Below, one piece after another: positions 13,518 through 55,883 of a stretch of 64,000 nt of DNA. The DNA comes from a virus: positions 98,707-162,706 of the IMG/VR virus record IMGVR_UViG_3300008110_000030, one strand, 5' to 3'. A program made the position numbers and the translations under genes. Within the stretch, counting starts at the first letter, position 1. The number at the start of each line of letters is the position of its first letter. The notes under the pieces were generated by a model that saw nothing but the letters and a program-made list of their open reading frames with translations, did not search any database and was not told the origin of the DNA.

Positions 13518-13581
13518 ATAAATACATGATAGTTAAAATCATGGTACCTTTACCATGGGTGAGTAAGGCACATATATCATG
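13518..13581 (+). promoter_or_regulatory. Late-promoter-like site and structured leader of cargo operon
   Basis: ATAAATA at 13518-13524 precedes a leader that can fold in two exclusive ways: CATGAT (13525-13530) with ATCATG (13538-13543), or CATGGTA (13540-13546) with TACCATG (13551-13557, loop CCTT). A second ATCATG (13576-13581) covers the start codon at 13579 and could also pair with 13525-13530. The leader opens the block of genes with capsid-targeting-like N-termini. Confidence 0.4.
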
Positions 13582-13947
13582 AAATTATTTGAATTTTTTA
13601 GTCAGAATACAACTGAACCAGAAGAGAAAGAAAATGACGACCAAATACGTAAGGACGTCATGGCCTTTATACTCGATGATAATGACATCTATCGAGAGAA
13701 ACTTCTCCCACTGATCCACAAGCACAATAAGAACGTTAAAGATGAAGATTTACGTAAAGATTACGTAAAAGTTATCAACGACTGTTGCATCGAATTTTAT
13801 AAAGAAAAAGAATTAAAAACAGATCCAAACAAACTTTTTCCAAAAGCAATGAGAAATGAGATGATAAAACAACTCATTAAGATCAATAAAGAAAATATTA
13901 CTACAAAGAAGAATAAAAAAGATGAAGATACGAGATCTGTTATTTGA
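13579..13947 (+). CDS. Putative internal head protein, unknown
   Basis: A 122-residue, very charged protein. The N-terminus MKLFEFFSQNTTEPEE is the first of ten related leaders in this region that look like the capsid-targeting sequence (CTS) of T4 internal proteins (MKTYQEFI-type). The typical cleavage glutamate right after the leader is missing; TTE at residues 11-13 is a candidate. The rest is helical, basic and Lys-rich (KKNKKDE near the end). Its 3' end overlaps the next gene by 26 bp. Function unknown; packaging in the head is inferred from the leader. Confidence 0.5.
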   Translation: MKLFEFFSQNTTEPEEKENDDQIRKDVMAFILDDNDIYREKLLPLIHKHNKNVKDEDLRKDYVKVINDCCIEFYKEKELKTDPNKLFPKAMRNEMIKQLIKINKENITTKKNKKDEDTRSVI

Positions 13948-14308
13948 AGGTAGGATTGATCCTACTCTTTTAAATCATTTTCTTAAACACTGTTCTGAAG
14001 AATTGGGTCTTGAATCGTTACCTAAAATTAATCTCATAGATAACAAAGAATATTCAGTAACACACAAATCATTTGGCGGTTATCAGCCAGGCGAAAAATC
14101 AATAATTTTATCCACTAAGGATAGACACCCAGTTGATGTGTTTAGAACACTAGCACATGAACTAACTCACTATAAACAAGATTTAGACGGACAACTTGAA
14201 GGGGACGATGTTGGTGCCACAGGTAGTCCAGAAGAAAATGAAGCTAATTCTGTTGCAGGCGTAATAATGCGTAACTTTGGTCAGAAGTTTCCAGAAGTAT
14301 TTGAATAA
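13922..14308 (+). CDS. CTS-bearing zincin metalloprotease
   Basis: A 128-residue protein. The leader MKIRDLLFEG contains an LFE|G site that fits the T4 gp21 prohead protease rule (L/I-x-E|). The mature part has HELTH (H79, E80, H83) followed by EENEAN (E104, E105, E107), which gives the HExxH...E zinc site of gluzincin-like minimal peptidases. The length is close to a stand-alone catalytic domain. I infer a small metalloprotease packed in the capsid and ejected into the host; possible targets are unknown. An inactive or structural role cannot be excluded. Confidence 0.7.
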   Translation: MKIRDLLFEGRIDPTLLNHFLKHCSEELGLESLPKINLIDNKEYSVTHKSFGGYQPGEKSIILSTKDRHPVDVFRTLAHELTHYKQDLDGQLEGDDVGATGSPEENEANSVAGVIMRNFGQKFPEVFE

Positions 14309-14316
14309 GGACCATC

Positions 14317-15330
14317 ATGCGTATTAAAGATCTATTTGAAGGCGGGTGGGATACTACCAAAACACAAAACACTGTACTACATCCTAAAATTGTAAGTGTT
14401 GCCTTATCTGTAGTAGATCGATTTGTTGTTGATTTCAATAACTTTATTAAAAATAAAAACGTTGGTCAAATTAAACGTGGAAGACCAACAGGTAGCAGTG
14501 CATACCATGAACAAGACGCCATTGAAAGACCAGATACAATTTATGGCGATATTGATTTACAAATGATTGCACCGCCAGTTGAAGGATTAACTTACGGACA
14601 GTTTAGTGGTTATTGGAATAAACTAGCAGATGATTTTGTTAAGACTGCAAATCCTGCGTATGTAGACACAACTGAAAGCAAACCTGGTCATCCAATTTTC
14701 CAAGTTGGTAAACAAGACTATGTTCAAATTGACTTTATGTGGCATGAGCAAAAAATGGCGGATTGGGGTGCTACTCGTGTAACTCCAGAACGTGGTATCA
14801 AAGGTTTACTGTCAGGTAACATGTACAGTGTATTTGGTGAAATACTTGACATGAGTATTCAACATGCTGGAGTACAACTTAAAGTAATTGATGACCAACG
14901 TGTGCCGTTTAGTAAACAAAAAGATACACAAATAATCACAGTGACAACAAATCCAAAAACATTTATATTAGATGTGTTTATGTATTTGGCCAAACGTATG
15001 GGCGTGAACAATCCAAGAATTGATCCCATGCTCAAACAGTTCTCTGGCAACGACATTAACGATGTTAAAATAAGCAAACTAGTTAATGGTATGAAGGGAT
15101 TTGCCTCAAGTGCAGAAGCAAGTGGTATGTTTGGTAAAGGTGATTTACAAAATTTTAACTCTGCACAAGATTTTATGAATAAGTTTTGGCAACGTTACGA
15201 AGAAAAAGCACAAATTGACATTGCTGGTAAAAAGCGTGACAAAGCACAAACCCCAGATGCTATTGCACGTGCCAATGCAGACAGAGAAAAGATCCAAAAA
15301 GGTCTAGATATGGTTAAAGGATATTTCTAA
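14317..15330 (+). CDS. CTS-bearing nucleotidyltransferase-fold protein
   Basis: A 337-residue protein with leader MRIKDLFEGG (LFE|G). A GRPTGSSAY segment, the acidic pair D78/D80 in YGDIDLQM and the third acidic residue D139 in VQIDFMW match the catalytic pattern of pol-beta-type nucleotidyltransferases (GS...DxD...D). The C-terminal third is basic and helical. A second NTase-like protein is encoded two genes downstream. Known activities of this fold include tRNA nucleotide addition, protein AMPylation and antitoxin action; which applies here is open. The last base of its stop is the first base of the next ATG. Confidence 0.65.
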   Translation: MRIKDLFEGGWDTTKTQNTVLHPKIVSVALSVVDRFVVDFNNFIKNKNVGQIKRGRPTGSSAYHEQDAIERPDTIYGDIDLQMIAPPVEGLTYGQFSGYWNKLADDFVKTANPAYVDTTESKPGHPIFQVGKQDYVQIDFMWHEQKMADWGATRVTPERGIKGLLSGNMYSVFGEILDMSIQHAGVQLKVIDDQRVPFSKQKDTQIITVTTNPKTFILDVFMYLAKRMGVNNPRIDPMLKQFSGNDINDVKISKLVNGMKGFASSAEASGMFGKGDLQNFNSAQDFMNKFWQRYEEKAQIDIAGKKRDKAQTPDAIARANADREKIQKGLDMVKGYF

Positions 15331-15707
15331 TGAGAGCAAAAGAATTTATAACTGAAATTAAGGCAGGAGCAATATCTAAACGACAAGGCATGTCAACTAC
15401 TGGTATAAATTTATATACTGATGCTGAAAGACGAAACAGCGACTATGTGTCATATCGTTTAGGTATGGCAGTTGCTTGTACAGATGGTACAAACGATCCT
15501 GATATGGATGCTAAAAGTTGGGTTGACAAAAGTAAGACTACTCACCCATATACACCCCAAGAACAAGAAATGCTTAAAAAAGCCTACAAGGCAGTAGGAG
15601 CAAAATGGAAAGATTTAAATCACGGAGATTTAACTAGTCAAGAATTAAAAACAACCAACGTTGTTAGTCCAGTTGCAAAACCTAAACGAAACAAATACGG
15701 CGTGTAA
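15330..15707 (+). CDS. CTS-bearing conserved phage protein
   Basis: A 125-residue protein with leader MRAKEFITEIKAG (ITE is the candidate cleavage site). The C-terminal domain, with SWVDKSKTTHPYTPQEQEMLKKAYKAVGA and ending in KKNKYGV-like NKYGV, is a module I remember from several T4-like marine phage proteins, sometimes joined to other domains. Function unknown. It is read directly from the end of the preceding NTase gene. Confidence 0.55.
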   Translation: MRAKEFITEIKAGAISKRQGMSTTGINLYTDAERRNSDYVSYRLGMAVACTDGTNDPDMDAKSWVDKSKTTHPYTPQEQEMLKKAYKAVGAKWKDLNHGDLTSQELKTTNVVSPVAKPKRNKYGV

Positions 15708-15719
15708 TGAGAGTTAAAA

Positions 15720-16559
15720 ATGAAAATATTTGAACTGTTAATTGAAAGTGGTAAAAGGCTTGCTAGTCAAGGAGTTGAAGTCTCTAGAGTAAACAAAGAC
15801 GACTTTGTTGCCGCTAAAAATGTTTTAAATCCTATTCTAATCAAAGCAGGAATTAAAGCAGGATGGACTGCTGGCGGTGCTGGTAGTTTTGATCCTGAAC
15901 ACGACTATGGTGGTGGTGGAAGAGAAGACAGCGGTGATATTGACATTATGATTGACCCTGCAGAACTAGTAGGACGTTTTCCACCCAATGTTGAAGCATA
16001 CAATGCCGCAAGTGCAAAACCAATCGGTCCAAAAGCTATGGCCAACGCTATGGCAGATCCAGCTAAAAAAGCCAAGATAGAAATGAGTGCTAGTAAATGG
16101 GCACTGGCTGACTTTATGACAAAAAATGGTTTTAGAACCGACCCAGGAACGCTAACTGTTGAATATACCGCTAGTGGGAAAAGTTTTTCAGTTGACTTGA
16201 TTATACGTCCAAGAAATGCTTGGCCACTACATACTCATGATTTTGCAACTGATCCAAAAATGCGTGGTGGAGATTTATGGATTAACATGTATCCTGTGTT
16301 AGCTAAACTTGCTAGTAAGACAGTTTTTACTGATCCAAAAACTGGTGAAGAAAAAGGCAATATACAATTTAGTCCTGATAAAGGCTTAGTGGACAGAGAT
16401 ACTAATAAAGTAATTGCCATTGATAAAAATGACATTGCCAAAATTTTATTAGGTCCACAATTTAGTGCAAAGGATTTGTCAAGTATGACAGGTATTAGAA
16501 ATGCGTTATCTAAACAACCTGAAAAGTTGTCAAAACTACCACAGCCACAAGAGCAATAA
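15720..16559 (+). CDS. CTS-bearing nucleotidyltransferase-fold protein (second)
   Basis: A 279-residue protein with leader MKIFELLIESGKR (LIE|S candidate cleavage). GGAGSF, then REDSGDIDIMID (D73, D75) and VDLIIRP (D159) form the GS...DxD...D pattern of nucleotidyltransferases. The overall sequence differs from the NTase-like protein at 14317, so this is a separate family member rather than a recent duplicate. The gene ends 8 bp before the ligase/NMNAT-like fusion gene. Confidence 0.65.
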   Translation: MKIFELLIESGKRLASQGVEVSRVNKDDFVAAKNVLNPILIKAGIKAGWTAGGAGSFDPEHDYGGGGREDSGDIDIMIDPAELVGRFPPNVEAYNAASAKPIGPKAMANAMADPAKKAKIEMSASKWALADFMTKNGFRTDPGTLTVEYTASGKSFSVDLIIRPRNAWPLHTHDFATDPKMRGGDLWINMYPVLAKLASKTVFTDPKTGEEKGNIQFSPDKGLVDRDTNKVIAIDKNDIAKILLGPQFSAKDLSSMTGIRNALSKQPEKLSKLPQPQEQ

Positions 16560-16562
16560 ATA
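16556..16562 (+). promoter_or_regulatory. Late-promoter-like ATAAATA
   Basis: ATAAATA spans the stop of the previous gene and lies 5 bp before ATG 16568. The same 5-bp spacing is seen before the minus-strand gene at 55860. No SD separates it from the ATG, so the resulting late mRNA could be leaderless or nearly so. Confidence 0.45.
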
Positions 16563-16567
16563 CAGTT

Positions 16568-18976
16568 ATGAATTTATTTGAACTTTTTTCACCCACTAAA
16601 CAAGCTATTATGGAAGGCATTGACCATCCAGAAGATCTCATTATCTCACAAGGTAGTGCAGGTGCTGACAGGGTATTAAAAGATTTAGCAAGTTTGGAAA
16701 AAGATCCAAACACAGTTACAGTCAAGTGGGACGGATTCCCAGCAGTTGTGTTTGGTAGAGACAAGGGCGGAAACTTAGTGTTTATGGATAAACACATGTA
16801 CGAAAAAGTAGCCTCTGGAAAAATGGACTTTATGTCTATTAAAGATTATGACGAAAGTCGTGGTGCTAATCGTACAAGTTTGATTGATCAAGAAAGTATT
16901 ATACGTCCGCTATTAAGTAAAATAGTTCCTAACGTCAAAGATCAATATTGGATGGGTGACTTGATGTGGACTGGTACGCCGCCAGTTAGTAATGGCGCAT
17001 TTGTGTTTAAACCAAACACTGTAGAATATCAAGTTGATATAGATCAAACTCCAGGCGTTGGAGATTCATTAAGCGATAACATTGCCAGAAGTGGGGCAGG
17101 AATTGCAGTGCATACTTTTATTCCTGGTTTAGGTCAGCCTGATCAACCACTTGTTGGACTTAAAGGTTTGCCAGAAGATGCTGGTATTACTTTCCTAGTT
17201 GGAGAGATGAAGGACAAGCCACGTGTTGCAATTAATCCTGAACTATTAAATCAAACACAACAAATAATTAATTCTAATAGAAGTGCTGTAGACAAGTTTT
17301 TTGTTGACTTAACTGCAATGAAGGGCAAGAGCGTTATAACTGCTATGGGTCCGTTCATTACACGTATGTTAGAAGACAATGACATCAAAGGTGACATTGT
17401 TCCTAGATTCTTAGAGTTTTTAGGCGAACGTTTAACTGACAGTGCTAAACAAAAAATGTTAGGCACAAATAAAGATGGTTGGCTTTACCAAGAACAGGGC
17501 GGTGCTCCTGGACTACTTGGCATTTGGACTATGTGGGCCGCAATTACTGAATTAAAATTAAACGTTAAACAACAAATTGACACACAACAGCAAGGTAGTA
17601 AAATACGTGCTGTTACTGATGGTATCAATGCACATGAAGGTTACGTGTTTGGTGCAGGTAAAGACAAATTAAAACTAGTTGATCGATTAGGATTCAGCAG
17701 AGCAAACTTTGCTAAACACAAAGTTAGTGATGAAGAAGTAGCTGAAAAAAGTAAAATGCCGCTAGCTGTTTTTTGCTTTGGTCGTATGAACCCGCCAACA
17801 ATGGGACACGGACTTGTTTTAAATAAAACAGTTGAACTTGGCAAACAAAATGCATTTGTATTTTTAAGCAATAGTGTTGACCCAACAGATAATCCACTAT
17901 CGCCAGCAATAAAAGCAAAATTTATTGAACAAATTTATCCTACTACTAAAGGTCATATTGTTACAGATTTTGTACAAAGTCCAATATATGCTGCCAACTG
18001 GCTGTATAGTAAAGGTTATCGTAACATGGCATTTGTTGCTGGTAGTGACCGACTAGGAAAAGAAAAAGGTAGTATTGAAAAACTACTTAGTAGTTGGAAC
18101 AGTGGACCAGTTAGAAGTACTGATCCAGCTGGCGCTAGAGACTTTGTAAATATGCAGTACATAAGTGCAGGAGATAGAGATCCTGACGGTGAAGGAGTTA
18201 CTGGCTACAGTGGAACTAAAGCTCGTCAAGCAGTGACTGCGAACAATGAACAACAGTTTCAAAATTATACTGGAATTGGTAGCGACATTGTGGTTAACGG
18301 AAAAACGTTATACCAGTCAGTCAAAGAAGGTATGGGCATAAGAGACCAGGCACTAGCGCAACCTGCTGTTGTTAAACAACCTGCAACGCCAAATGTACAA
18401 GTAACTAAAAAGATTCCAGGAAAAGCACCAGCACAGGAGTTGGACACAATGAATGAAACTACCTTAAAAAATAAGGAAGATTTACAAGCAAAACGTAAAG
18501 CATTACAAGATATTCAGATGGATAAACATACACATAAGGATCCACAATTGAGTGCTGAATTAGCTAGACGCAAAGCATCTTTAGAGCGTGAAGCAAAGAA
18601 AAAAGGTATTGCTGAATCAATTGTTGAGTCAATTGGTATTTTAGAAGAACAACAAAATTTCTTAAGAAGACAAAAGTTAAATGAGGCACCAATTGAAATG
18701 GATCCACAAAATCCAAATGATCCAATGGTTATGCCTCCTGGACTTAATCCAGGTAAATTAAGTTATCGAAAACAACGAGCTGCCGCACAATTAGCAGATT
18801 TAGCTCGTATGGCTTCGCAGGCAAATGAAAAGAATAGTGCTATAATGTGGGATAGTATTGTTAGACATTTTCCAGAATTGGAAACAAACATTCGTAGCAT
18901 ACAACATGGTATGCAAGAATTAGAAAAAGTGCGTCGTGCAGGCGGCAAACGAAGCAAGGGAATTGAAAAAATATGA
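16568..18976 (+). CDS. CTS-bearing ligase-like / NMNAT-like fusion protein
   Basis: An 802-residue multidomain protein with leader MNLFELFSPTKQAIMEG (IME|G candidate site). Domain 1 (about 30-385) has covalent nucleotidyltransferase motifs of the DNA/RNA ligase superfamily: motif I KWDG with K53 as predicted AMP acceptor, motif IV HEGYVF (E357) and motif V KLKL (367-370). Domain 2 (about 398-570) has the cytidylyltransferase/NMNAT signature FGRMNPPTMGHG (G405-G415, HxGH-like with T for the first H), AGSDR and SGTKAR (548-553, like the ISxTxxR motif). The tail (590-802) is charged and helical. It could join nucleic acid ends, make NAD or both. I infer delivery from the head. Confidence 0.7.
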   Translation: MNLFELFSPTKQAIMEGIDHPEDLIISQGSAGADRVLKDLASLEKDPNTVTVKWDGFPAVVFGRDKGGNLVFMDKHMYEKVASGKMDFMSIKDYDESRGANRTSLIDQESIIRPLLSKIVPNVKDQYWMGDLMWTGTPPVSNGAFVFKPNTVEYQVDIDQTPGVGDSLSDNIARSGAGIAVHTFIPGLGQPDQPLVGLKGLPEDAGITFLVGEMKDKPRVAINPELLNQTQQIINSNRSAVDKFFVDLTAMKGKSVITAMGPFITRMLEDNDIKGDIVPRFLEFLGERLTDSAKQKMLGTNKDGWLYQEQGGAPGLLGIWTMWAAITELKLNVKQQIDTQQQGSKIRAVTDGINAHEGYVFGAGKDKLKLVDRLGFSRANFAKHKVSDEEVAEKSKMPLAVFCFGRMNPPTMGHGLVLNKTVELGKQNAFVFLSNSVDPTDNPLSPAIKAKFIEQIYPTTKGHIVTDFVQSPIYAANWLYSKGYRNMAFVAGSDRLGKEKGSIEKLLSSWNSGPVRSTDPAGARDFVNMQYISAGDRDPDGEGVTGYSGTKARQAVTANNEQQFQNYTGIGSDIVVNGKTLYQSVKEGMGIRDQALAQPAVVKQPATPNVQVTKKIPGKAPAQELDTMNETTLKNKEDLQAKRKALQDIQMDKHTHKDPQLSAELARRKASLEREAKKKGIAESIVESIGILEEQQNFLRRQKLNEAPIEMDPQNPNDPMVMPPGLNPGKLSYRKQRAAAQLADLARMASQANEKNSAIMWDSIVRHFPELETNIRSIQHGMQELEKVRRAGGKRSKGIEKI

Positions 18977-20034
18977 AAATTACACAACTTTTAGACGAAG
19001 CAAAAAAAGGTGTTAAGGCACCTAAGCATACTGTCAAACCTAGAAACTTTGTAGCTAAAAACGCTATAGCCACTACTAGTGGTGCTGGCGCACACAAGGA
19101 TAAAAAGAAAGCCGCTAAACAAGGCGATGTTAAGCACAAAGGCAAAGAGCTTGCTGAAGATACTCGTGCCGAGTTAGCTTTTAAAGATTTAGATGCAGAA
19201 ATATCAGGCGACAGTACCAATGTATCTGATCTAGAACAACGAGCATCAGCATTAAGAAAACAAATGCCTGTGCAAAAACCAACTCGAGTAGCTGACTTAC
19301 CAGATGTTGATCAATACGAAAATGCAAAAAGATTTGGAAAATTTAATGGATCATACGGGGATTGGTTAAAAAATAAAGGCATGAAAGAAAATACATTGCA
19401 AGGTGTGGAGGAAGAAAAACAAAAAGGTGTTGATGGCAAGGCCTGTTGGAAAGGCTACAAGCGCATGGGCACCAAGAAGAAAGGTGGCAAGACAGTAGAC
19501 AACTGTGTGCCTATGAATGAGAGTTTTGATCCCGAGTATGATGACGAAGCTGGTATGGCAGACAATAACCTTGAAACTTTAAAAAGAGCAGTAGAAGGTT
19601 TAGACGACATGATTAACGAAGGCGACAACTTGCCTGAATGGTGTCAAGAAAAAATTGCAGTAGCAAAAAGCATGTTAATCTCAGTTTGGGACTATATGCA
19701 AAGTGAAGAAAATAGTATGTCTGAAAATCAAAGAAATCCTGATCTAATGAGTCAAACTGATTATGATCGATATCAACAAGGTCAAATGGACCAACAAAAG
19801 CGTGACTTTAAACGTGACGAACTAGAACATGAACTTGGCCATGAAGAGCAAGGCATGTACTATGTTGTAATTGCAAAGAATGGCAAATGGGAACACACTA
19901 AAGCGCAGCCTAGACAAGAAGGAATGAATGCCGCACAAAGAATTATTAATGCGTTACATTCAAAATATCCTAGTATGCACTTGGGCATGGTTGGTCCAGA
20001 CGGCAAAGTATATAATTATGGTAAGGGCAAATAA
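18973..20034 (+). CDS. CTS-bearing multidomain phage protein
   Basis: A 353-residue protein with leader MKITQLLDEAKKG (LDE|A). It is a string of modules known to me from marine T4-like phages without a function: a Lys-rich N-terminal part, a VDGKACWKGYKRMGTKKKGG... NCVPM motif (residues 155-181) with two cysteines, a helical LKRAVEGLDDMINEGDNLPEW module (about 200-240), and a C-terminal YYVVIAKNGKWEHTKAQP domain. It overlaps the fusion gene by 4 bp. The very basic start suits DNA contact inside the head. Confidence 0.55.
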   Translation: MKITQLLDEAKKGVKAPKHTVKPRNFVAKNAIATTSGAGAHKDKKKAAKQGDVKHKGKELAEDTRAELAFKDLDAEISGDSTNVSDLEQRASALRKQMPVQKPTRVADLPDVDQYENAKRFGKFNGSYGDWLKNKGMKENTLQGVEEEKQKGVDGKACWKGYKRMGTKKKGGKTVDNCVPMNESFDPEYDDEAGMADNNLETLKRAVEGLDDMINEGDNLPEWCQEKIAVAKSMLISVWDYMQSEENSMSENQRNPDLMSQTDYDRYQQGQMDQQKRDFKRDELEHELGHEEQGMYYVVIAKNGKWEHTKAQPRQEGMNAAQRIINALHSKYPSMHLGMVGPDGKVYNYGKGK

Positions 20035-20036
20035 AA

Positions 20037-20471
20037 ATGGATAAGCTACAACTAGCATTAAAAACAGCATTTGCAAGTGAATATTCATTTGCCTTAAAAG
20101 CACAAAATTTCCATTGGAATGTAGAGGGCATGTTCTTTACACAGTTTCATGATTTGTTTGGTGACATTTATACTGAAGTTTATGGAAACATTGATGCGTT
20201 TGCAGAAAATATTAGAAAAGCAAGAGCATACACCCCAGCAAGTTTAACACGCTTTAGTATGTTAAGTGTTATTCAAGATGAAACAGAAATATTAGAAGCA
20301 CCAGAGATGTGTGCAGAACTTTTATCAGATTCTGATAAGATGGCTGAAATTCATAGATTAACTTTCCAGTTGTCTGAAGAAGCAGGTGAACACGGTCTTA
20401 GTGATTTTTTAGCTGGAAGACAAGATGCCTTCCGCAAACACTCTTGGATGTTAAGAGCCACATTGAAATGA
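20037..20471 (+). CDS. Dps-like ferritin
   Basis: A 144-residue four-helix protein of the Dps family, which oxidises iron with peroxide and shields DNA. QNFHWNVEG (H26), FHDLFGD (H38) and the D53xxxE57 pair in NIDAFAENIRK reproduce the inter-subunit ferroxidase site of Dps (H...H...D...E). It lacks the lysine-rich N-terminal tail used by E. coli Dps to bind DNA, and it lacks a CTS-like leader. It lies inside the cargo operon, 2 bp after the preceding stop. Phage Dps is unusual; it may protect DNA or act on host iron during infection. Confidence 0.75.
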   Translation: MDKLQLALKTAFASEYSFALKAQNFHWNVEGMFFTQFHDLFGDIYTEVYGNIDAFAENIRKARAYTPASLTRFSMLSVIQDETEILEAPEMCAELLSDSDKMAEIHRLTFQLSEEAGEHGLSDFLAGRQDAFRKHSWMLRATLK

Positions 20472-20518
20472 AGATCAAAGAATTATTAGAACATAAACAA
20501 ACGCATGAAACAATATAG
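20468..20518 (+). CDS. Orphan CTS-like leader peptide (possible frameshifted start)
   Basis: A 16-codon reading frame (MKIKELLEHKQ start) that begins 4 bp before the Dps-like gene ends. The sequence is a typical leader of this operon but is followed by a stop. The next gene (20505) lies in the +1 frame and has no leader; that frame is open from 20490, so a single +1 shift within about 20490-20518 would join the leader to it. It could be a decayed fusion, a sequence error, or programmed frameshifting. Confidence 0.45.
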   Translation: MKIKELLEHKQTHETI

Positions 20519-20798
20519 AATTACTACTGATAATATTGTTAATGACAGTCCTGATGATTGTTATTTAGATCCTACTGACCCTTTGAATGAGATAAAGGCT
20601 CTACAATATCTTGGTGGTATCAATTCGTTAAATAGACTACAAGAGTACAAAGGTATGCAAGGTAGTAATATTAGTGCAACTGGCTCAGAGAAGGGAAGGC
20701 TACAGCGAGAAAACAATATTAAACCAGGAACTCCTGAATGGTTTAAATTGTGGTTTAGTTTACCGTATATGACTGGCGAGAGGCCTATTGAAAAATGA
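20505..20798 (+). CDS. Unknown protein, possibly lost or frameshifted leader
   Basis: A 97-residue polar protein (MKQYRITTDNIVNDSPDDCY; GTPEWFKLWFSLPYMTGERP at the C-terminus). I do not recognise it. Its ATG overlaps the orphan CTS-like frame at 20468 in another frame, and it has no clear SD of its own, so it may be expressed by coupling or by frameshift with that leader. It ends 4 bp into the next gene. Confidence 0.5.
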   Translation: MKQYRITTDNIVNDSPDDCYLDPTDPLNEIKALQYLGGINSLNRLQEYKGMQGSNISATGSEKGRLQRENNIKPGTPEWFKLWFSLPYMTGERPIEK

Positions 20799-21949
20799 AA
20801 ATAAGAGATTTATTAGAGTTATCAAAATCTAGTCCACTAGGCAAATTCATTGATAAAGTAGATACAGATTATTCTGTAGGGGCAACCACAGATAAGATTG
20901 GCAATGCAATTTCTAACGTTTTTAAAAATTATTCTAATGATAAAACAGATGCACCTACTAAAAGTGAAGTTCCTGTAACAGTAGCAAAACCTGCATCAAG
21001 TTCAACTGCTGTAAGTTCTGAAGTTGTTGCTCAAGAATTAGATAGACAAGGAATCACTGACCCAAATTTAAGAAAATCAATTATGGGGAAATTTGGTCAA
21101 GAATCAGGCGGAAACACTAGAGTCACTGAAATTCCTTATAAGAATACAAGTAATGATATTATTAGATTAAGATTACCGCAACTTAGAAGTATGAGTGATA
21201 ATGAATTAAATGATTTAAAACAAGATACAGAAAAATTTTTTAATAGGGCGTATGGATATAAAGGTAATTCGTTAAACAATACCGAACCAGGTGATGGTTA
21301 CAAATACAGGGGCCGTGGTCTAACTGGTATCACTGGTAAAGTAAATTACCAAAGAGCTGATGATGCATTAGGTTTAAAAGGCGAGCTAGTTAAAAATCCT
21401 GATCTACTATTAGATCCAGAAATTGATAAAAGAGCTTCTGTTTGGTTTTATAAGGCAGCTGGCGCGGATAAAGTAACTTTTGCCAATCAAGAAGATGCTA
21501 ATAAGTGGGCTATACACAAGGCTGGTGGGAACATGTATGCTCCTGGCACTGAGTTAGGAAATATCGCATTAAATGATTTGAATAAAAGAACGGCCGTAAT
21601 TGGTGCGGTAGCTGCCACTGGGATTGTGGCAGGTCCAACTTTAGTAAGAAAAGCAGACACTGTAATAGATAGGGTTAAAAATCTCTTAGGCAAAACAGCC
21701 GACAGTGCTAAATCAGTTGTAGGACAAACAGTAAACACTGCCAGAAATACTGCTATAGCAACTGCATTGGGTTCAGGATCTAGCAGTGGAAGTGGTGGAG
21801 GCTTTTATGGCGGAAGTGGATCAGCTCCAGAAGAACAAGAAGTGACATTAATAATTAATGGCAAACGTAAAAAATTTAAAAATAAAAGAGAAGCAAAAAT
21901 TGCAATGGACATTGCAAGATCACAAGGGATAGATGCAAGATATGGGTAA
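20795..21949 (+). CDS. CTS-bearing GH19 muramidase-like protein
   Basis: A 384-residue protein with leader MKIRDLLELSKSS (LLE candidate site). Residues 85-260 form a GH19 lysozyme-like domain: FGQESGGN with candidate catalytic E103 and GRGLTGITGKVNY from G173. A hydrophobic stretch (about 266-282, AVIGAVAATGIVAGPTLV) and a Gly/Ser-rich linker (about 326-345) precede a small basic C-terminal domain. It is distinct from the endolysin at 5006. The leader suggests it travels in the head; it could open peptidoglycan at entry or be delivered into the cell. Confidence 0.7.
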   Translation: MKIRDLLELSKSSPLGKFIDKVDTDYSVGATTDKIGNAISNVFKNYSNDKTDAPTKSEVPVTVAKPASSSTAVSSEVVAQELDRQGITDPNLRKSIMGKFGQESGGNTRVTEIPYKNTSNDIIRLRLPQLRSMSDNELNDLKQDTEKFFNRAYGYKGNSLNNTEPGDGYKYRGRGLTGITGKVNYQRADDALGLKGELVKNPDLLLDPEIDKRASVWFYKAAGADKVTFANQEDANKWAIHKAGGNMYAPGTELGNIALNDLNKRTAVIGAVAATGIVAGPTLVRKADTVIDRVKNLLGKTADSAKSVVGQTVNTARNTAIATALGSGSSSGSGGGFYGGSGSAPEEQEVTLIINGKRKKFKNKREAKIAMDIARSQGIDARYG

Positions 21950-22550
21950 GCCAGAAGTTTATTTAGATATGGACGGAGTTATTGCAGACTTTTTTACAGA
22001 GTATGCTAAACTTGCGGGCATTGAATCAGGGAACTACAGAGATATTCCACCAGCAAAAACAGATCCTACATTAAACAAAATGATAGGTACAGACTTCTTT
22101 GCACGTCTACCAAAATGCAGAAATGCAGATGCACTAGTAGACTTAATAGTAAAAACATTTGGTACTTATAATATTTGTTCAAGTCCTCTGCGTGGTGATC
22201 ATGCAAACAGTGAAAAACAAAAAAAGATTTGGCTTGGCAACAATCTAAAATACCAACCTAAAGATGTTGTAATTACACCAAACAAAGCCAAATGGGCCAA
22301 ACAAACAGATGGAACTCCTAACATTTTAATTGATGATAGAGGAAGTAACATTAGTTCATGGGAAGCCGCTGGTGGTATTGGTATCAAATATCAAGCAGAC
22401 GAAGACAACTTACAAGTAATTGTACAAGGTATTAAAAGAGCATTTTCTGTTATAAAAGGTGAAGAGAAACACGACCCTCAAAAGTTAAAAAGTTTAGATC
22501 GTAGTAATGGTAATTTAATTGCTACTAGTGGTGATAAAGACGCCCATTAA
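21933..22550 (+). CDS. HAD-family 5'(3')-deoxyribonucleotidase-like protein
   Basis: A 205-residue phosphatase of the HAD superfamily. DMDGV (nucleophile D12, acid/base D14), CSSP, the lysine in QKKIWLGNN and the acidic pair IDDRGSN follow the motif order of 5'(3')-deoxyribonucleotidases (NT5C type). It would dephosphorylate nucleotides and thus adjust pools. It has no CTS-like leader. The start at 21933 (AAGGGA nearby) or ATG 21942 are both possible; the former overlaps the GH19 gene by 17 bp. It has an unusual 45-residue polar tail. Confidence 0.75.
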   Translation: MQDMGKPEVYLDMDGVIADFFTEYAKLAGIESGNYRDIPPAKTDPTLNKMIGTDFFARLPKCRNADALVDLIVKTFGTYNICSSPLRGDHANSEKQKKIWLGNNLKYQPKDVVITPNKAKWAKQTDGTPNILIDDRGSNISSWEAAGGIGIKYQADEDNLQVIVQGIKRAFSVIKGEEKHDPQKLKSLDRSNGNLIATSGDKDAH

Positions 22551-22559
22551 GGACATCAT

Positions 22560-22796
22560 ATGAAAATTCAAGAAATTATCACAGAAACTGCTACAGCTGG
22601 ATCAACAAGTGCTAGTAATATTGCTAGTACTGGAAACAGTCCACACGTTGCAGTTGGAAGCCCTGCAGTGATTAAACGATGGGGCGGAAGTCCTGGTAAA
22701 ATGGGTAAAAGTCCAGAACCAGCTAAAACTAAGTCTCAAGACGCCGATGATAACCCTGTCACTAACCCAAGTGTCGGTAATAACCTAGTTGCATAA
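22560..22796 (+). CDS. CTS-bearing small protein
   Basis: A 78-residue protein with leader MKIQEIITETATAG (ITE|T), followed by a Ser/Gly/Pro-rich part with VIKRWGGSPGKMGKSPEP, a short basic motif that I recall from other T4-like marine phage proteins. It is probably largely disordered. It is the last CTS-type leader in the block. Function unknown. Confidence 0.5.
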   Translation: MKIQEIITETATAGSTSASNIASTGNSPHVAVGSPAVIKRWGGSPGKMGKSPEPAKTKSQDADDNPVTNPSVGNNLVA

Positions 22797-22799
22797 ATA
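22793..22799 (+). promoter_or_regulatory. Late-promoter-like ATAAATA
   Basis: ATAAATA overlaps the stop of the previous gene and precedes the gene at 22817 by 17 bp, with GGAG as SD in between. It fits a late promoter for a head-related Lys-rich protein. Confidence 0.5.
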
Positions 22800-22816: not shown

Positions 22817-24160
22817 ATGCCTTTTAAATCAGCTAAACAGAAAAAAACAATAGATGCGGCAGCACATAATCCTGCTTTTGCAAAAAAAGTAGGAATTAAG
22901 ACCGGTGATGCCAAAAAAATGTCTGCACATGGTAAGGGTCAAACTAAGTTTGAAGAAGCCAAAGATACTGTAGAAAAAGATGAAAAAGGCAACGTTAAAT
23001 CATGGAAGCACGAAGGCGACTGGAAAAAAGCTGATAACAAACAAGGACGTGGAAAAGTGACTAATTTAAGCGACAAGGCTCGTAGACAAACAGCAAAGAT
23101 GAGCAAGGCTGAAACTGAAATGGCTGAAGCATTTGAACAAGCATTAGAAGGTGCTGGATCTCCAACAGTTACGCATGGTCCAAACAAAGGCAAAAAATGG
23201 AGTCCAGAAACTCCAGGGCCAACAAACCCAAGTTATAAAAGTATAGACAAAGGCATCCCTAGTCCACCAGATGGTGCAACTGCTCCTCCTCCTGGTTACA
23301 AGCCTCCAAAGCCTAGCAAACGTGCAGAAGTTACACCTACAAGTGACAGTGACGACACAGCCATGACCGCAGAAAGTTCTTCTAAGAAAGTAATGAAGAA
23401 GTTACGTGCTAAACACATGATGGAGTCAATTAAAGTGTTAGGAGAATTAATTGCAGAAGCTAAAAAATCTGCAAAAAAGAAAAGTACTAAAGTAAAAGAA
23501 GATCCTAACGAAGGTAATGCATTTGGTAAAGCAGTGCAAGATGCTAAAAAAGACGGCATACAAAAAGGTGAAAAAGTCAAAGTTGGTGGTAAAGAATATC
23601 CAGTAAAAGAAGCTGCCAATGAAAAATGCAATCATACACCAAAAGGTAAAAAGTGCCCAGTACACGGTTTGAAAGAGTGTGGTTCAATGTATGAAGGCAA
23701 TGACGGTAACTTGGCCAATAATGCCAAACCATATGACAAAGTCACACGTGGTGATGTTATTGCTGGTCGTTTGGGCAAAGACGAAATGGGCGGTAAGAAA
23801 AAGAAAGATAAAAAGACTACTGAAACATTTATGCCTGTAAACAAGGAAAAGCCACAAGGACCAGTTGATAAGGCAATTGGTAATGTGACCAAGGCAGTTG
23901 GTGGTGCAATTAAAACTGTTGCAGACAAAGTAAAAGGTGCAACTGGAGACACTGACGTAAAAACAGACGAGTCATATACTGTCAATGGTAAGAAAGTGTC
24001 CAAAGCTGCCTATGATAAAGAAATGAAAAAAGCTGGCAAAGGTAAAGAAAAAGTTAAAGAAGGTTGGACACACGATACACTAGCCGCAAGATTATTTGAA
24101 AGTGGTGACGAGTATATGGTTTCATTACATAACAGATTAAGCCAAAAAATAAAAGGTTAA
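22817..24160 (+). CDS. Large Lys-rich protein, putative head-internal or DNA-bound
   Basis: A 447-residue very basic protein of low complexity. It starts MPFKSAKQKKTIDAAAHNPAFAKKVG, a segment I recall from phage proteins, then Lys/Gly/Asp-rich stretches, a Cys/His cluster (KCNHTPKGKKCPVHGLKECG, about residues 270-290), and a C-terminal EGWTHDTLAARLFESGDEYM...RLSQKIKG helix pair. Start 22817 follows GGAG by 6 nt. It lacks a CTS leader but closes the cargo operon and resembles, in composition, head core or DNA-condensing proteins. Function is inferred from composition and context only. Confidence 0.5.
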   Translation: MPFKSAKQKKTIDAAAHNPAFAKKVGIKTGDAKKMSAHGKGQTKFEEAKDTVEKDEKGNVKSWKHEGDWKKADNKQGRGKVTNLSDKARRQTAKMSKAETEMAEAFEQALEGAGSPTVTHGPNKGKKWSPETPGPTNPSYKSIDKGIPSPPDGATAPPPGYKPPKPSKRAEVTPTSDSDDTAMTAESSSKKVMKKLRAKHMMESIKVLGELIAEAKKSAKKKSTKVKEDPNEGNAFGKAVQDAKKDGIQKGEKVKVGGKEYPVKEAANEKCNHTPKGKKCPVHGLKECGSMYEGNDGNLANNAKPYDKVTRGDVIAGRLGKDEMGGKKKKDKKTTETFMPVNKEKPQGPVDKAIGNVTKAVGGAIKTVADKVKGATGDTDVKTDESYTVNGKKVSKAAYDKEMKKAGKGKEKVKEGWTHDTLAARLFESGDEYMVSLHNRLSQKIKG

Positions 24161-45330: not shown

Positions 45331-46202
45331 TGGATAATTATCACAGTCTAATATCAAAAATAATCAACGAAGGTTCACTAAAAGAAGATCGAACTGGAGT
45401 AGGTACAATTAGTTTATTTGGGGAGCAACTTAGATTTGATTTAAACAAAGGCTTCCCTGCAATTACAACCAAAAAGTTAGCATGGAAAGCAGTAGTTAGC
45501 GAACTGCTTTGGTTTATTTTAGGTAGTGGTGACGAACGTAAACTTAAAGAAATTTTACACGGTGACGCAAATAGTGATAAGAAGACTATCTGGTCTGAAA
45601 ATGCTAGCGCAGATTATTGGGTCAACAAACATCAAAAGAAACATAAAGACGACTTAGGTAGGATTTATGGAGTACAGTGGCGTACTTGGAGATCTCCAGT
45701 CTTTGGAGTTAACAAGATGGGCATTCGACACATTGACCAACTGCAACAATTGCTCAAGGGCATCAAAGAAGATCCAAACGGTCGTAGACACATTATCACA
45801 GCATGGAATCCAGGAGAGCTTGATTCAATGGCGCTACCGCCTTGCCATTGCTTTGCACAATTTTATGTAAACAACGGCAAACTGAGTTGTCAAATGTATC
45901 AACGTAGTGCTGACATTTTTCTAGGAGTGCCTTTTAACATCGCATCGTATGCTTTATTCACTCACATGATTGCTCAATGTTGTGATTTAGAAGTAGGCGA
46001 GTTAATCATTACGTTTGGTGATGTGCATTTGTATAATAATCATTTAGAGCAAGCACAACAGCAACTAGAAAGAGAAGCATTTGATTGTCCTAAACTGGTG
46101 TTAAACCCACAAATAAAGGACATTACAAAATTTGCAATGTCCGATATTAGTTTAGAAAACTATCAAAGTCACGACGCAATTTCAGCGCCAATGGCTGTTT
46201 AA
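45330..46202 (+). CDS. td: Thymidylate synthase (ThyA type)
   Basis: A 290-residue TS converting dUMP to dTMP. KEDRTGVGTISLFG, the catalytic loop PPCHCFAQF with C172, CQMYQRSADIFLGVPFNIASYALFTHMIAQ and LYNNHLEQAQQQL match the family; the length is close to T4 Td (286). It is the last plus-strand gene, converging with the tail-fibre block with a 4-bp tail-to-tail overlap and no visible terminator. No intron, unlike T4 td. Confidence 0.95.
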   Translation: MDNYHSLISKIINEGSLKEDRTGVGTISLFGEQLRFDLNKGFPAITTKKLAWKAVVSELLWFILGSGDERKLKEILHGDANSDKKTIWSENASADYWVNKHQKKHKDDLGRIYGVQWRTWRSPVFGVNKMGIRHIDQLQQLLKGIKEDPNGRRHIITAWNPGELDSMALPPCHCFAQFYVNNGKLSCQMYQRSADIFLGVPFNIASYALFTHMIAQCCDLEVGELIITFGDVHLYNNHLEQAQQQLEREAFDCPKLVLNPQIKDITKFAMSDISLENYQSHDAISAPMAV

Positions 46203-48253
46203 AGAATCACACACTCCACAAGTTTAACACCTGTATCACTATTAGTTTCTAAAGCAATAGCAAATACACCGTTAGCATGTGGAACTGACATAACAGCACA
46301 ACCATTATCAGAGGCGATTAGTTCATCGCCTTTCTTAATGGATCCAATTACTTTAACTGGAATACGGCCTTTTAGTGCAACAATGGTTCCGCCTTCTAAA
46401 CTATCGTTCATTAGATATGCAGGTTTATTACTAACTGCACCAATTGCACGTTTACCCCACTTACTGGCAGTAACTTCTTTTTCTCCGCCAATCATTAAGA
46501 CTGTGCCAACTTCGTATTCTGCATCTGCAAGATATTTTTCTGCCAAGTCAGCATAATTAGCACTAGTAGCAGTACCATGCACAATGTTTACAAATATGTC
46601 TGCTGCCGCATCACGTGCAACAATTGTACTTGGAGTGTTTAATACAGACGGAACTAATCCACCAAGTCTATCTGCGTTAGTGGCAGTACCAGCGATATTT
46701 CCTACTTGAATAGATCCGTTAGAATCTCTAACTACAATTGTAAACGGAGTGTTACTTATCGAAGCAACTCTAGGAACTTGGTTTTGATCTAAAATAGATA
46801 TTGATTGTTGTGCAGTTCCTAAGAATTGTACAGCTGATAAATTTCCGTCTGCATCACGCACTGCTACAGTATTTCTATATGGTGTTGGATTAACACTGGA
46901 AACTAGTCCTGTATAGTCTGTACTACCAATTCTTAGTTTAGCGGCTGTTTCAGATACACCAGAAAACGCACCTCTAAAAACTGTACTAGCACCACTCACA
47001 TCAACTGCTATTTGTTGGTCAACAGGAGCATTTAAATTAACTACATTACCATAATGGCTACCGTTAGTTCTTCCATTGAACACTGGTGTTAGGCCACTGA
47101 TTGTTAAAACTTCTGTGTTGTCATTTTTTACTATATTACCATTTACATTACCTACTAGTCTACCAACAAATCCAGCACTAGCAGATACAGTTGTTCCTTC
47201 TACTTTTCCTCTAAATGCCGCATTTCCAACGGGCAATCCAGGGTCATCAACTGCAACAAAATTGTTTGCAATAACGTTTTTAATTTTTTTGGTGTTTGTT
47301 CCAAGACTAAATGCACTATCAATATCTGGTACTAGACCAGTATTATCAAGAGCAATAACTTTTCTAAGTGTTCCAGAAACAGTTACACTTAAACTGAAAT
47401 TAGATCCAGTTATATTATTAAGATACGCTGTTCCAGCATTGTATCCTAAAAAGAAATTATCAGAACTTCCTAAAAATAAACCTTTAACATTTGAGAATGA
47501 ACCGTTTGGATTAAGCGATGGTTCAACTCTAATGGATAAGCTGGTATTCATAATTTGATTACCAGATCCTGTATTTTGTACAAAATTAGCCGCAGGAATT
47601 TCTATATTGTTTACCAATAATGATTCTGAAGTTTTTGCTACACCGCCAAATTTAATGTTAGGATAACTTGTTCTTGAAGGTAGCGTGATTCCTTTAAAAA
47701 TTTTACCAAACCCCGTTATAGGAGTCTGAGTTGAATCAATATCAAATTCGTCTTTAGAGAATACAGTAGAAATTGTGTCCTCAAACTGAGAAGCCAATAC
47801 AGTATGTCTATTACCGCCAGTGTCAATTAATACTTTAGATACAAGTTGAGCCGCATTAGGATTAACTAATAATGGTCCAATTAACTTGTGTTCAGTGCCG
47901 TTATAAGCAAATAGCTGACTTGTTGTAGTATTGAACCATAAGTCGCCTGCTAATTGTCCTGTTGGAGCTGTTGCACTATGTTCTATAGTACCTAAGGGTT
48001 TAAATTCAACTCCATTGTAAATCTTGATCTTTTTAACACTGGTGTCAAACCAAAGTTGACCAGTTATTTTATTTGTTGGTTCTACAGAATTAGCAAAATT
48101 TTCTAGTAGATATACTAAACTCTCATTTAATGATTTTCCGTATCCAGAATAGTTTTTTCCAGGCAAATTTAAGTCTGTAGAAATGTTATCTACAGAACCA
48201 TCCTGTATTACAGCTATTGTTTGACCGTTAAATTTCTTTATTGTATATGGCAT
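46199..48253 (-). CDS. Tail-fibre-like protein 1 with C-terminal assembly domain
   Basis: A 684-residue protein. The N-terminal 110 residues carry the module shared by four genes here (PYTIKKFNGQ; SLVYLLENFANSVEPTNKITGQLWFDT; GDLWFNTTTSQLFAYNGTE). The middle is Ser/Thr/Asn/Gly-rich beta structure. The end (about 560-684) has ADLAEKYLADAEYEVGTVLMIGGEKEVTAS, a C-terminal domain I know from cyanophage tail fibres, where it may help trimerisation or processing. It is driven by GTAAATA at 48276-48282. Confidence 0.75.
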   Translation of the reverse strand: MPYTIKKFNGQTIAVIQDGSVDNISTDLNLPGKNYSGYGKSLNESLVYLLENFANSVEPTNKITGQLWFDTSVKKIKIYNGVEFKPLGTIEHSATAPTGQLAGDLWFNTTTSQLFAYNGTEHKLIGPLLVNPNAAQLVSKVLIDTGGNRHTVLASQFEDTISTVFSKDEFDIDSTQTPITGFGKIFKGITLPSRTSYPNIKFGGVAKTSESLLVNNIEIPAANFVQNTGSGNQIMNTSLSIRVEPSLNPNGSFSNVKGLFLGSSDNFFLGYNAGTAYLNNITGSNFSLSVTVSGTLRKVIALDNTGLVPDIDSAFSLGTNTKKIKNVIANNFVAVDDPGLPVGNAAFRGKVEGTTVSASAGFVGRLVGNVNGNIVKNDNTEVLTISGLTPVFNGRTNGSHYGNVVNLNAPVDQQIAVDVSGASTVFRGAFSGVSETAAKLRIGSTDYTGLVSSVNPTPYRNTVAVRDADGNLSAVQFLGTAQQSISILDQNQVPRVASISNTPFTIVVRDSNGSIQVGNIAGTATNADRLGGLVPSVLNTPSTIVARDAAADIFVNIVHGTATSANYADLAEKYLADAEYEVGTVLMIGGEKEVTASKWGKRAIGAVSNKPAYLMNDSLEGGTIVALKGRIPVKVIGSIKKGDELIASDNGCAVMSVPHANGVFAIALETNSDTGVKLVECVIL

Positions 48254-48275
48254 GTCAACTCTCAGTTATTTCTAA

Positions 48276-48282
48276 TATTTAC
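48276..48282 (-). promoter_or_regulatory. Late-promoter-like GTAAATA
   Basis: GTAAATA on the minus strand, 22 bp before the ATG of the fibre gene at 48253 with a GAGAG SD in between. Confidence 0.5.
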
Positions 48283-48284
48283 CA

Positions 48285-48749
48285 TTAAACTACTTTCTTA
48301 GAAAGCATGGCTGCTTCTTGCTCTTTTGATACCCAAGTATATGCTTCTGAATTGCCTGAATATGCTTGAACTTTTTGTAAATGTTCTTGTCTAACTGCCT
48401 TTAAAAAGTCTCTCATGGCCACAAATTCTGGGGTTTTTTCACTAGCATTTTTATCTAGCATGTCTACTAAAATATTCATTTGCTTGTGTATTGAATAAGT
48501 TTCTAAAACTTTTAGGTTAGTAGCGTAATTTAATGTAGATTCAGTAATGACTGGCTTGTCTAGTCTAGACATAATTTGTCCAGTTGCATAGTCCCCGCTC
48601 CAATATTCTTGATTTCCAGCGTCAATGCTCACATCTCTGATATAAAACTTAGTCAAATCTAATATTGACTCATCAGTGTCAGCAGTGATCTCGCCAATAA
48701 GAACCCCTGTAGATTTTAAAAACAATAATTTTCTATTTTCTTTTGCCAT
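48285..48749 (-). CDS. Small protein in fibre cluster
   Basis: A 154-residue protein (AKENRKLLFLKSTGVLIGEITADTDE; EYWSGDYATGQIMSRLDKPVITESTLN; long helix ILVDMLDKNASEKTPEF). ATG 48749 overlaps the stop of the oxygenase gene (TAATG) with GGGGAA as SD; an upstream ATG 12 nt away is less likely. Being inserted between fibre genes, it may be a fibre chaperone or attachment factor; this is inference. Confidence 0.5.
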   Translation of the reverse strand: MAKENRKLLFLKSTGVLIGEITADTDESILDLTKFYIRDVSIDAGNQEYWSGDYATGQIMSRLDKPVITESTLNYATNLKVLETYSIHKQMNILVDMLDKNASEKTPEFVAMRDFLKAVRQEHLQKVQAYSGNSEAYTWVSKEQEAAMLSKKVV

Positions 48750-49240
48750 TATATTCCCCAACTTAATACAAGACTATACTTTGATTGTTCGTCTTGTCCT
48801 ATTTCTGTTACTTCGTGTTCAATATGAATAGGCATTTCTAAATATGCTCCAGGTTCTTCTTCAACAAAATTCCCGTTGCCTTCTTTATCGTACCAAACAA
48901 AATGAGGCTTATCACTTCTTAAAAATATCAACTTAAACTTCCAATATGCTCCTTGAGAATCTTTATGTCTTTTTAAAAAGTCCCCTGAATCATACCTATT
49001 AATTACAAAGCTAGTAGCAGTTTTATCTTCATCACTTAACGTTTTAAAAATAGCTGCCTTTAATTCATCACTCATATTAAAATAAAAAAGAGATTTCATT
49101 TGACTATCTCCGTACACAGTAGAAAAATTATATTTTTCATTTGTTTGTCTTAGAGAAAAATTATGAGTTTCTTTTTCTGCTATCTCTATAATTTCACTTG
49201 GATTAGTCAAATAATTCTTAATTAAGTTAACCTGATACAT
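48749..49240 (-). CDS. 2OG-Fe(II) oxygenase in fibre cluster
   Basis: A 163-residue protein of the prolyl-4-hydroxylase-like type. INRYDSGDFLKRHKDSQG gives the HxD metal site, HIEHEVTEI the distal His, and SKYSLVLSWG the 2-oxoglutarate-binding region. Start 49240 overlaps the end of the fibre gene at 49227 by 14 bp. A second, unrelated-looking oxygenase is at 32570. Its placement within tail-fibre genes suggests that it could hydroxylate a fibre protein. Confidence 0.7.
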   Translation of the reverse strand: MYQVNLIKNYLTNPSEIIEIAEKETHNFSLRQTNEKYNFSTVYGDSQMKSLFYFNMSDELKAAIFKTLSDEDKTATSFVINRYDSGDFLKRHKDSQGAYWKFKLIFLRSDKPHFVWYDKEGNGNFVEEEPGAYLEMPIHIEHEVTEIGQDEQSKYSLVLSWGI

Positions 49241-51143: not shown

Positions 51144-51155
51144 CTAATCGCTCCG

Positions 51156-52925: not shown

Positions 52926-52934
52926 CGTCTATCC

Positions 52935-55184: not shown

Positions 55185-55185
55185 C

Positions 55186-55860: not shown

Positions 55861-55865
55861 AGTAA

Positions 55866-55872
55866 TATTTAT
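55866..55872 (-). promoter_or_regulatory. Late-promoter-like ATAAATA
   Basis: ATAAATA on the minus strand, 5 bp before ATG 55860, the same spacing as at 16556. It fits late expression of the structural block. Confidence 0.55.
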
Positions 55873-55883
55873 CCAGTGCTTAA

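Follow-up and report, generated by a model that had tools for sequence, protein, structure and literature searches.

A leader-tagged enzyme island in a T4-like virus, best read as an enlarged version of T4 internal-protein packaging

Why would a run of phage genes encoding unrelated proteins begin, gene after gene, with almost the same short peptide? This question is raised by an island of genes on the plus strand (13579-22796) of a 64,000-nucleotide stretch of viral DNA, here called the window, which comprises bases 98707-162706 of a metagenome-derived virus record of 214,617 bases (IMGVR_UViG_3300008110_000030). Our own gene calling places 12 genes in the island, starting in 13579-22560 and named here by their start positions, and nine of them (13579, 13922, 14317, 15330, 15720, 16568, 18973, 20795 and 22560) open with a hydrophobic/acidic leader of approximate consensus M-K/R-I/L-x-E/D-L/F-L/I-x-E. 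A preliminary description of the window had counted ten such reading frames; nine stand as tagged genes and the tenth is a remnant. We consider it highly probable that the island is the cargo-loading locus of a T4-like phage, working by the mechanism proposed below, and it is best read as an enlarged, enzyme-rich version of the packaging of internal proteins (IPs) in T4.

A shared leader and its boundary glutamate

The leaders can be described by a pattern, hereafter the comb, of methionine, one or two residues, a hydrophobic residue, any residue, an acidic or amide residue and two hydrophobics. This fits nine of the 12 island genes and two of 101 other called genes in the window and stretches L002-L004 (Fisher p 2e-9); the background is about 3% (34 of 1157 ATGs followed by 15 open codons). 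As an independent test, we ranked 113 genes with a matrix built from three distinct leaders of the T4 record (Alt, IPII/IPIII and gp24), and the top five were all island genes (p 9e-5). With Alt removed, p was 1.4e-4; the 10-residue register used for Alt is an assumption, because a review gives its propeptide as 7 residues. In T4, residues 4 and 7 of the IPIII leader act in targeting and residues 8 and 10 in processing; the protease cuts after L/I-x-E, and the propeptides of IPs span 10-19 residues (PMC9026906). By the comb counts and the matrix ranking, the tagged genes encode predicted N-terminal propeptides with hydrophobic residues at the targeting positions, and in eight of nine leaders the gp21 motif L/I-x-E closes the propeptide, ending at residue 8, 9 or 16, much as the preliminary description had said of most of them.

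The same pattern recurs in relatives. Gene calls on 70 IMG/VR loci, several of which share a contig and some of which are almost identical to this phage, yielded 678 distinct full-start proteins, of which 192 have the comb, spread over 32 of the 235 families when own proteins are counted in; comb and site occur together in 27 families, several of them weak cases of the MHDILDV- and MEMIDVL- types. The comb is found in 141 of 171 homologues of the nine tagged genes (128 of 156 without copies at least 98% identical), in 1 of 47 homologues of the untagged genes 20037, 20505, 21933 and 22817 (1 of 42 without near copies) and in 3 of 188 homologues of genes outside the island (2 of 156); the last two counts rule out the leader as a trait of all genes or of operon position. 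Among proteins without a homologue in the searched part of the record it is present in 47 of 272, a figure that is unchanged without near copies. When the gene order of 13 relative loci was laid out, tagged genes fell mainly in the stretch before the DNA polymerase gene (gp43), with a few combs on a 3741 homologue and on genes that could not be placed.

Three families have a sharply conserved mature start, and in these we counted glutamates directly before it, provided that the mature motif lay within the first 30 residues. Glutamate precedes the mature start in 26 of 26 (14317), 24 of 25 (15720) and 28 of 28 (16568) distinct proteins, own included, and in 24 of 24, 22 of 23 and 25 of 25 once own proteins and near copies are removed; the sole homologue without it (L072, 15720 family) starts translation with Met at the mature residue. 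Position P3, the first of the L/I-x-E motif, is Leu, Ile or Val in 16 of 16, 14 of 17 and 20 of 20 distinct leaders. Leader identity in the three families is 0.22, 0.16 and 0.35, as against 0.75, 0.75 and 0.97 for the first ten mature residues, and in the 14317 alignment Glu8 and GGWD are invariant in 14 of 14 sequences while the leader varies.

Head genes, late-promoter words and a virion homologue

Outside the window, the same record carries a T4-type head module with portal, small core-like proteins, gp21 protease, scaffold-like protein and major capsid protein, the small proteins being named by position. The preliminary description had suggested looking for gp21 elsewhere in the genome, and a gp21-family prohead protease (PF03420, E 1.5e-27) is indeed present together with the T4-type head in one phage. 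Four of 20 relative records have it as well, among them the ones of 246, 259 and 323 kb; the remainder are mostly fragments. Over nearly its full length the capsid protein is 65-71% identical to those of T4-like phages with large genomes, among them Phosso, PA5oct/Paride, GAP32, CBB and PBECO4 (best rows of 2482 records). Megablast of 14 kb against known phages showed no DNA similarity, protein searches of a phage collection with 14317, 15720 and 22560 gave no match, sequence searches of the PDB gave nothing useful (one match at E 0.13), and a search of the record for peptidase S8 found none.

The word ATAAATA stands before the island (13518..13524, plus strand), before the 16568 gene (16556..16562, plus strand) and before the 22817 gene directly after the island (22793..22799, plus strand), and is present in 13 of 15, 17 of 36 and 7 of 9 distinct upstream sequences of the respective homologues. 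It is fourfold depleted in the window (7 copies versus 28.0 +/- 5.2 expected); across 115.9 kb there are 15 copies, and the word lies at most 75 nt upstream of 14 of 113 genes and in none of the control windows inside genes. Almost all copies in the window (1-64000) and L002-L004 are directly upstream of a gene and in the sense direction. Its placement makes ATAAATA a clean candidate marker of late promoters in this phage; a copy at 24866, which sits 79 nt before gp43, means that it may accompany other genes besides late ones. Among distinct upstream sequences it is present in 5 of 16 for homologues of 13067, the gene right before the island, in 2 of 27 for those of 15720 and in 2 of 14 for those of 18973; it is absent upstream of homologues of the remaining island genes and of those of 10091 (0 of 12), 12357 (0 of 12), 24260 (0 of 15) and 24945 (0 of 12). 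Two other words, TATAAATA and CTAAATA, were tried and set aside, the former being depleted in the window and the latter at expectation. The late promoter of cyanophages is given as NATAAATA (PMC2984593). The record also has a gp55 homologue at 179299 (E 4.9e-15) which, with the conserved words at 13518 and 16556, points to late transcription of the island alongside the head genes.

A link to virions comes from cyanophages. Sullivan et al. (2010) list T4-GC190, a putative citidylyltransferase, among the proteins of purified S-SM1 virions, and remark that S-PM2 had not yielded it (PMC3037559). The S-SM1 gene is SSM1_190, whose product matches the NMNAT-like part of the 16568 protein (29% over 196 residues, E 8e-18) and begins MKKFSAFLNE/AERSF (a slash marks the predicted cut), near to T4's MKTYQEFIAE/A. 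Like leaders begin the NMNAT-like proteins of S-SM2, S-MbCM6, S-CAM8, S-SRM01, ACG-2014f and Bellamy, so that leader and site are clear in 7 of 13 isolates; these were picked by hand from 501 matching records, S-SM1 by accession, and a second annotated cytidyltransferase of S-MbCM6 was left uncounted. In Synechococcus phage Bellamy (L097) the cytidyltransferase seems to have been annotated with too late a start, since an upstream in-frame Met before 1225 gives MKSLFQFLNE/A. The comb itself misses most cyanophage leaders, because residue 6 is often not acidic; what these leaders resemble is that of T4 IPIII, at residues 2, 4, 7, 8, 10 and 11. The presence of a leader in the detected S-SM1 protein and its absence from the undetected S-PM2 one is a link to packaging that is suggestive only, because the S-PM2 study missed known structural proteins too.

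Cargo enzymes and their exchange among relatives

Behind the leaders, the proteins largely bear out the earlier reading of the cargo as a HExxH protein, two nucleotidyltransferases, a ligase-like and NMNAT-like fusion, a GH19-like protein and unknowns. All genes of the island are on the plus strand. Gene 13579 (13579..13947, 122 residues, MKLFEFF-) has the comb and no PHROG or Pfam match. Next comes a HExxH metalloprotease-like protein (13922..14308, 128 residues, MKIRDLLFE/), with HExxH also in relatives and a weak match to the phrog_87 metallo-protease (E 1.9e-4). Genes 14317 (14317..15330, 337 residues, MRIKDLFE/) and 15720 (15720..16559, 279 residues, MKIFELLIE/) flank one for a 125-residue protein (15330..15707, MRAKEFITE/). 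AlphaFold models of the 14317 and 15720 proteins have a mean pLDDT of 84 and 86, and their sole segments with pLDDT below 50, residues 1-10 and 1-9, adjoin the predicted cuts after residues 8 and 9. The models match structures of the DNA polymerase beta family (best E 6e-4 and 2e-4, probability 0.99-1, TM 0.30 and 0.42), and a Gly-containing turn and three Asp are invariant in both alignments; we read these proteins as distant pol-beta-fold nucleotidyltransferases, with active sites that look intact by sequence.

The largest cargo protein (16568..18976, 802 residues, leader MNLFELFSPTKQAIME/) fuses a DUF6267 domain (PF19782, E 6.6e-29) to an NMNAT-like domain, and the protein also matches phrog_3041 (E 3e-37). 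KWDG, which we take to resemble the nucleotide-binding motif of ligases, is present in 28 of 28 proteins of the family, own included, and the FGRMNPPTxGH of the NMNAT-like domain in 26 of 28. It is followed by a 353-residue protein (18973..20034, MKITQLLDE/), a leaderless Dps/ferritin-like gene (20037..20471), the remnant, a leaderless gene for 97 residues (20505..20798), a GH19/endolysin-like wall hydrolase (20795..21949, 384 residues, MKIRDLLE/; phrog_181 E 9e-28, PF00182 E 1.9e-5, just under the cut-off) and a leaderless 5'-3' deoxyribonucleotidase-like gene (21933..22550; phrog_2643 E 4.6e-21). The remnant, which had been taken for a tenth leader-bearing frame, is an open reading frame (ORF) of 16 codons encoding MKIKELLE (20468..20518). 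We read it as such because a close relative carries a leader-bearing VanY-like peptidase gene of 223 residues at the same place (L054, 13426-14097, on a contig shared with L013).

The last island gene (22560..22796) encodes 78 residues reading MKIQEIITE/TATAGSTSASNIAST. The capsid precursor reads RYLAE/SATAGSTSAGNVATLN, with LAE/SATAGSTSAGNVA as its likely processing site, and this site recurs at the 22560 boundary as ITE/TATAGSTSASNIA. The 69-residue mature protein would thus start with a near copy of the capsid protein's likely processed N-terminus (TATAGSTSASNIA versus SATAGSTSAGNVA). Longer relatives of 22560 have the leader, a domain and then an inner site such as E/SATAGATSAGNIA; a capsid-like start after the inner Glu is seen in four of them (L014 9456, L016 16287, L017 16111 and L018 5142).

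The type of wall hydrolase differs among relatives: beside the GH19-like one there are leader-bearing hydrolases of SLT (E 1.5e-16), glucosaminidase (E 2.9e-15) and VanY-like type (E 0.003, under the cut-off). Relatives also tag an amidoligase-like protein (E 1.9e-6), whose leader fits the comb with a poorer site, and a PARP-like protein (E 0.0016, under the cut-off). In a Pfam scan of ten proteins of relatives, five (L049, L058, L075 6472, L057 and L076) had no match. Leader and enzyme behave as exchangeable modules. Two large leader-bearing fusions were observed in relatives, one of 1116 residues that begins as the 15720 type and runs into the 16568 type (L060 1653) and the other of 771 residues with a HExxH domain (L075 6472).

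Around the island lie an ATP-dependent protease gene (10091) and two small genes on one side and, on the other, the DNA polymerase gene 24945 (gp43). The gene directly after the island (22817-24160) is lysine-rich and leaderless, with its own conserved ATAAATA word. Further on, 46199-63998 of the minus strand holds a series of very long ORFs, one of which runs to the end of the window over at least 2704 codons; they are tail-fibre-like by appearance only.

Packaging, its alternatives and what the island may mean

In T4, leader-tagged internal proteins of known role are mostly small anti-restriction inhibitors, together with Alt. Like T4 IPI-IPIII and Alt with their capsid-targeting sequence, the island combines a short N-terminal hydrophobic/acidic propeptide, an L/I-x-E site and a gp21-type protease with genes in a cluster, similar leaders on mature proteins that are unrelated, and a T4-type late-promoter word. 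These features, with the boundary glutamate in relatives, the T4-type head genes and a published virion protein of a cyanophage that carries a leader on a homologue of one cargo domain (PMC3037559), uphold the comparison with T4 made in the preliminary description. The island differs from T4 in that no fewer than nine of its genes bear the tag, and enzymes make up most of their products that have a recognisable fold; its leaders are mostly 8-9 residues long and one residue shorter before the comb; and searches showed no similarity of its cargo to T4 IPs or Alt. T-even phages have at least ten internal proteins with a common leader, many of them discovered through it, and type IV restriction enzymes are inhibited by Ip1-3 (PMC12373910, PMC3012670).

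Other systems share parts of this arrangement. Cyanophage T4-GC190 is a homologue of the 16568 C-terminal domain with a T4-like leader in S-SM1 and six other isolates and was detected in S-SM1 virions (PMC3037559), but in several cyanophages it is a single gene beside a separate DUF6267 gene, whereas in the island the two are fused and accompanied by many other tagged genes. In phiKZ and SPN3US, a prohead protease cleaves many head proteins (ejection and inner-body proteins), which are packaged along with the DNA; the phiKZ motif is S/A-x-E (PMC9026906), whereas the island has L/I-x-E with a gp21-family protease, and P3 is Leu, Ile or Val in 50 of 53 distinct leaders of the three families, which does not fit cleavage of the S/A-x-E type. 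The antirestriction proteins of phage P1 (Dar; DarB) offer a comparison in mechanism, with targeting to the capsid by the N-terminus (PMC9024508), but P1 has a different set of head genes. Finally, the polyvalent proteins of Iyer et al. (2017) include metallopeptidases, ARTs and pol-beta nucleotidyltransferases and are thought to be injected, but they join many domains in each chain (PMC5512222), whereas the island cargo consists mostly of separate, single-domain proteins with individual leaders, the exceptions being the 16568 fusion and the 1116-residue fusion of L060. A literature search that took in few subscription journals and no supplements found no earlier account of leader-tagged enzyme islands.

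Packaging and cleavage of the tagged proteins are, from the sequence evidence, very likely, and injection and the enzyme roles would follow by analogy with T4. We propose that eight genes encode an N-terminal capsid-targeting propeptide of 8-16 residues and that in the ninth, 13579, the targeting part stands alone, with no cleavage site. At the late stage of infection, the ATAAATA promoters upstream of 13579 and of 16568 would probably be read by a gp55-type sigma factor, so that the cargo would be made together with the head proteins. The hydrophobic face of the leader, if it acts as T4 IPIII mutants suggest, would dock each enzyme on the prohead core, and the gp21-type protease would cut after (L/I)-x-E, at the site that relatives conserve, and free the mature enzyme in the head. 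DNA would then be packed around the HExxH protein, the two pol-beta-fold nucleotidyltransferases, the KWDG ligase-like and NMNAT-like fusion and the wall hydrolase, which, as with T4 IPs and Alt, would pass into the next cell along with the DNA and there probably protect or prepare genome and host.

A number of observations weigh against this proposal. The comb was drawn up only after the leaders had been seen, which is why the matrix test was added, and a matrix of the IP leader alone performs weakly (p 0.02, with island genes in three of the ten top ranks). Three of the 12 island genes (20037, 20505 and 21933) are leaderless, and 13579 fits the comb without an L/I-x-E site. The glutamate count left out 1 of 26, 5 of 29 and 17 of 45 homologues that had no mature motif in the first 30 residues, distant or cut-off ones among them; one 15720 homologue has no leader and three have 5-residue leaders, these three ending in Glu. 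Among the isolates, the case of S-CAM9 is unclear, the HTVC008M protein shows the comb but no site, and both are missing from those of S-PM2, P-HM2, Paride and fENko. Combs are near background in Paride (1 of 20 called genes) and in fENko-Kae01 (5 of 131, in two 50-kb stretches and an overlapping 28-kb one out of 360 kb), the latter too few for an enrichment test on the proteins marked by liquid chromatography-tandem mass spectrometry (LC-MS/MS), a set that includes DNA polymerase and a sigma factor. Virion proteomics, moreover, covers a homologue (S-SM1 GC190) and not this phage.

The alternative that survives best, though we think it unlikely, is that the tagged proteins enter the prohead by their leader and work in assembly only, as core or maturation factors that are never delivered to a host. 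One of the two comb-fitting genes outside the island is a gp67-like core gene adjoining the portal gene, the comb of 13579 has no cleavage site, as would suit a core part, and the 22560 product copies an N-terminal stretch of the capsid protein. Most of the cargo, however, consists of conserved enzymes with intact catalytic residues whose type is swapped between relatives, unlike assembly parts, and the T4 IPs and Alt, which are made by the same leader route, are injected (PMC12373910, PMC5512222). It is less probable still, and by a good way, that the leader is unrelated to heads and is a protein-protein docking or translation-start element of co-expressed genes: all tagged genes do lie in one co-directional cluster, and the virion data come from the phage of a homologue, but the leader residues vary while the hydrophobic comb and boundary Glu persist, untagged genes of the same cluster lack the leader in relatives (1 of 47), a matrix made from T4 alone recovers it, and the leader-bearing S-SM1 homologue is a published virion protein (PMC3037559). 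That functionless leaders arose by chance or by the spread of one 5' gene end is scarcely credible, for although so short a motif is matched by about 3% of ATGs, the comb is enriched in the island and its homologues, and orthologues keep the comb and the cut-site Glu while most other leader residues vary, which rules out chance or shared nucleotide 5' ends.

We return, then, to packaging for delivery: the probable reading is that the virus stocks its head with an exchangeable set of enzymes and passes these on together with its DNA. A broader proposal is tentative, and we would sooner doubt it than rely on it. In aquatic T4-like phages, the portable leader may be a plug-in tag that loads a virion enzyme kit (the ligase-like and NMNAT-like fusion, two nucleotidyltransferases, a protease and interchangeable wall hydrolases) to act in the first moments of infection, for instance by restoring NAD, by repairing tRNA or DNA ends attacked by host defences or by opening or resealing the wall, and GC190 of several cyanophages may be a leader-tagged head protein that the searched literature did not recognise as such.

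The T4 address system appears, then, to carry a set of whole enzymes, and the cargo behind the tag differs between relatives. Leader, L/I-x-E site and late promoter together make a sequence rule by which injected proteins of uncultured T4-like phages could be predicted and through which many hypothetical proteins gain a likely place of action, and the cyanophage core gene T4-GC190 becomes linked to leader-based packaging in the head.

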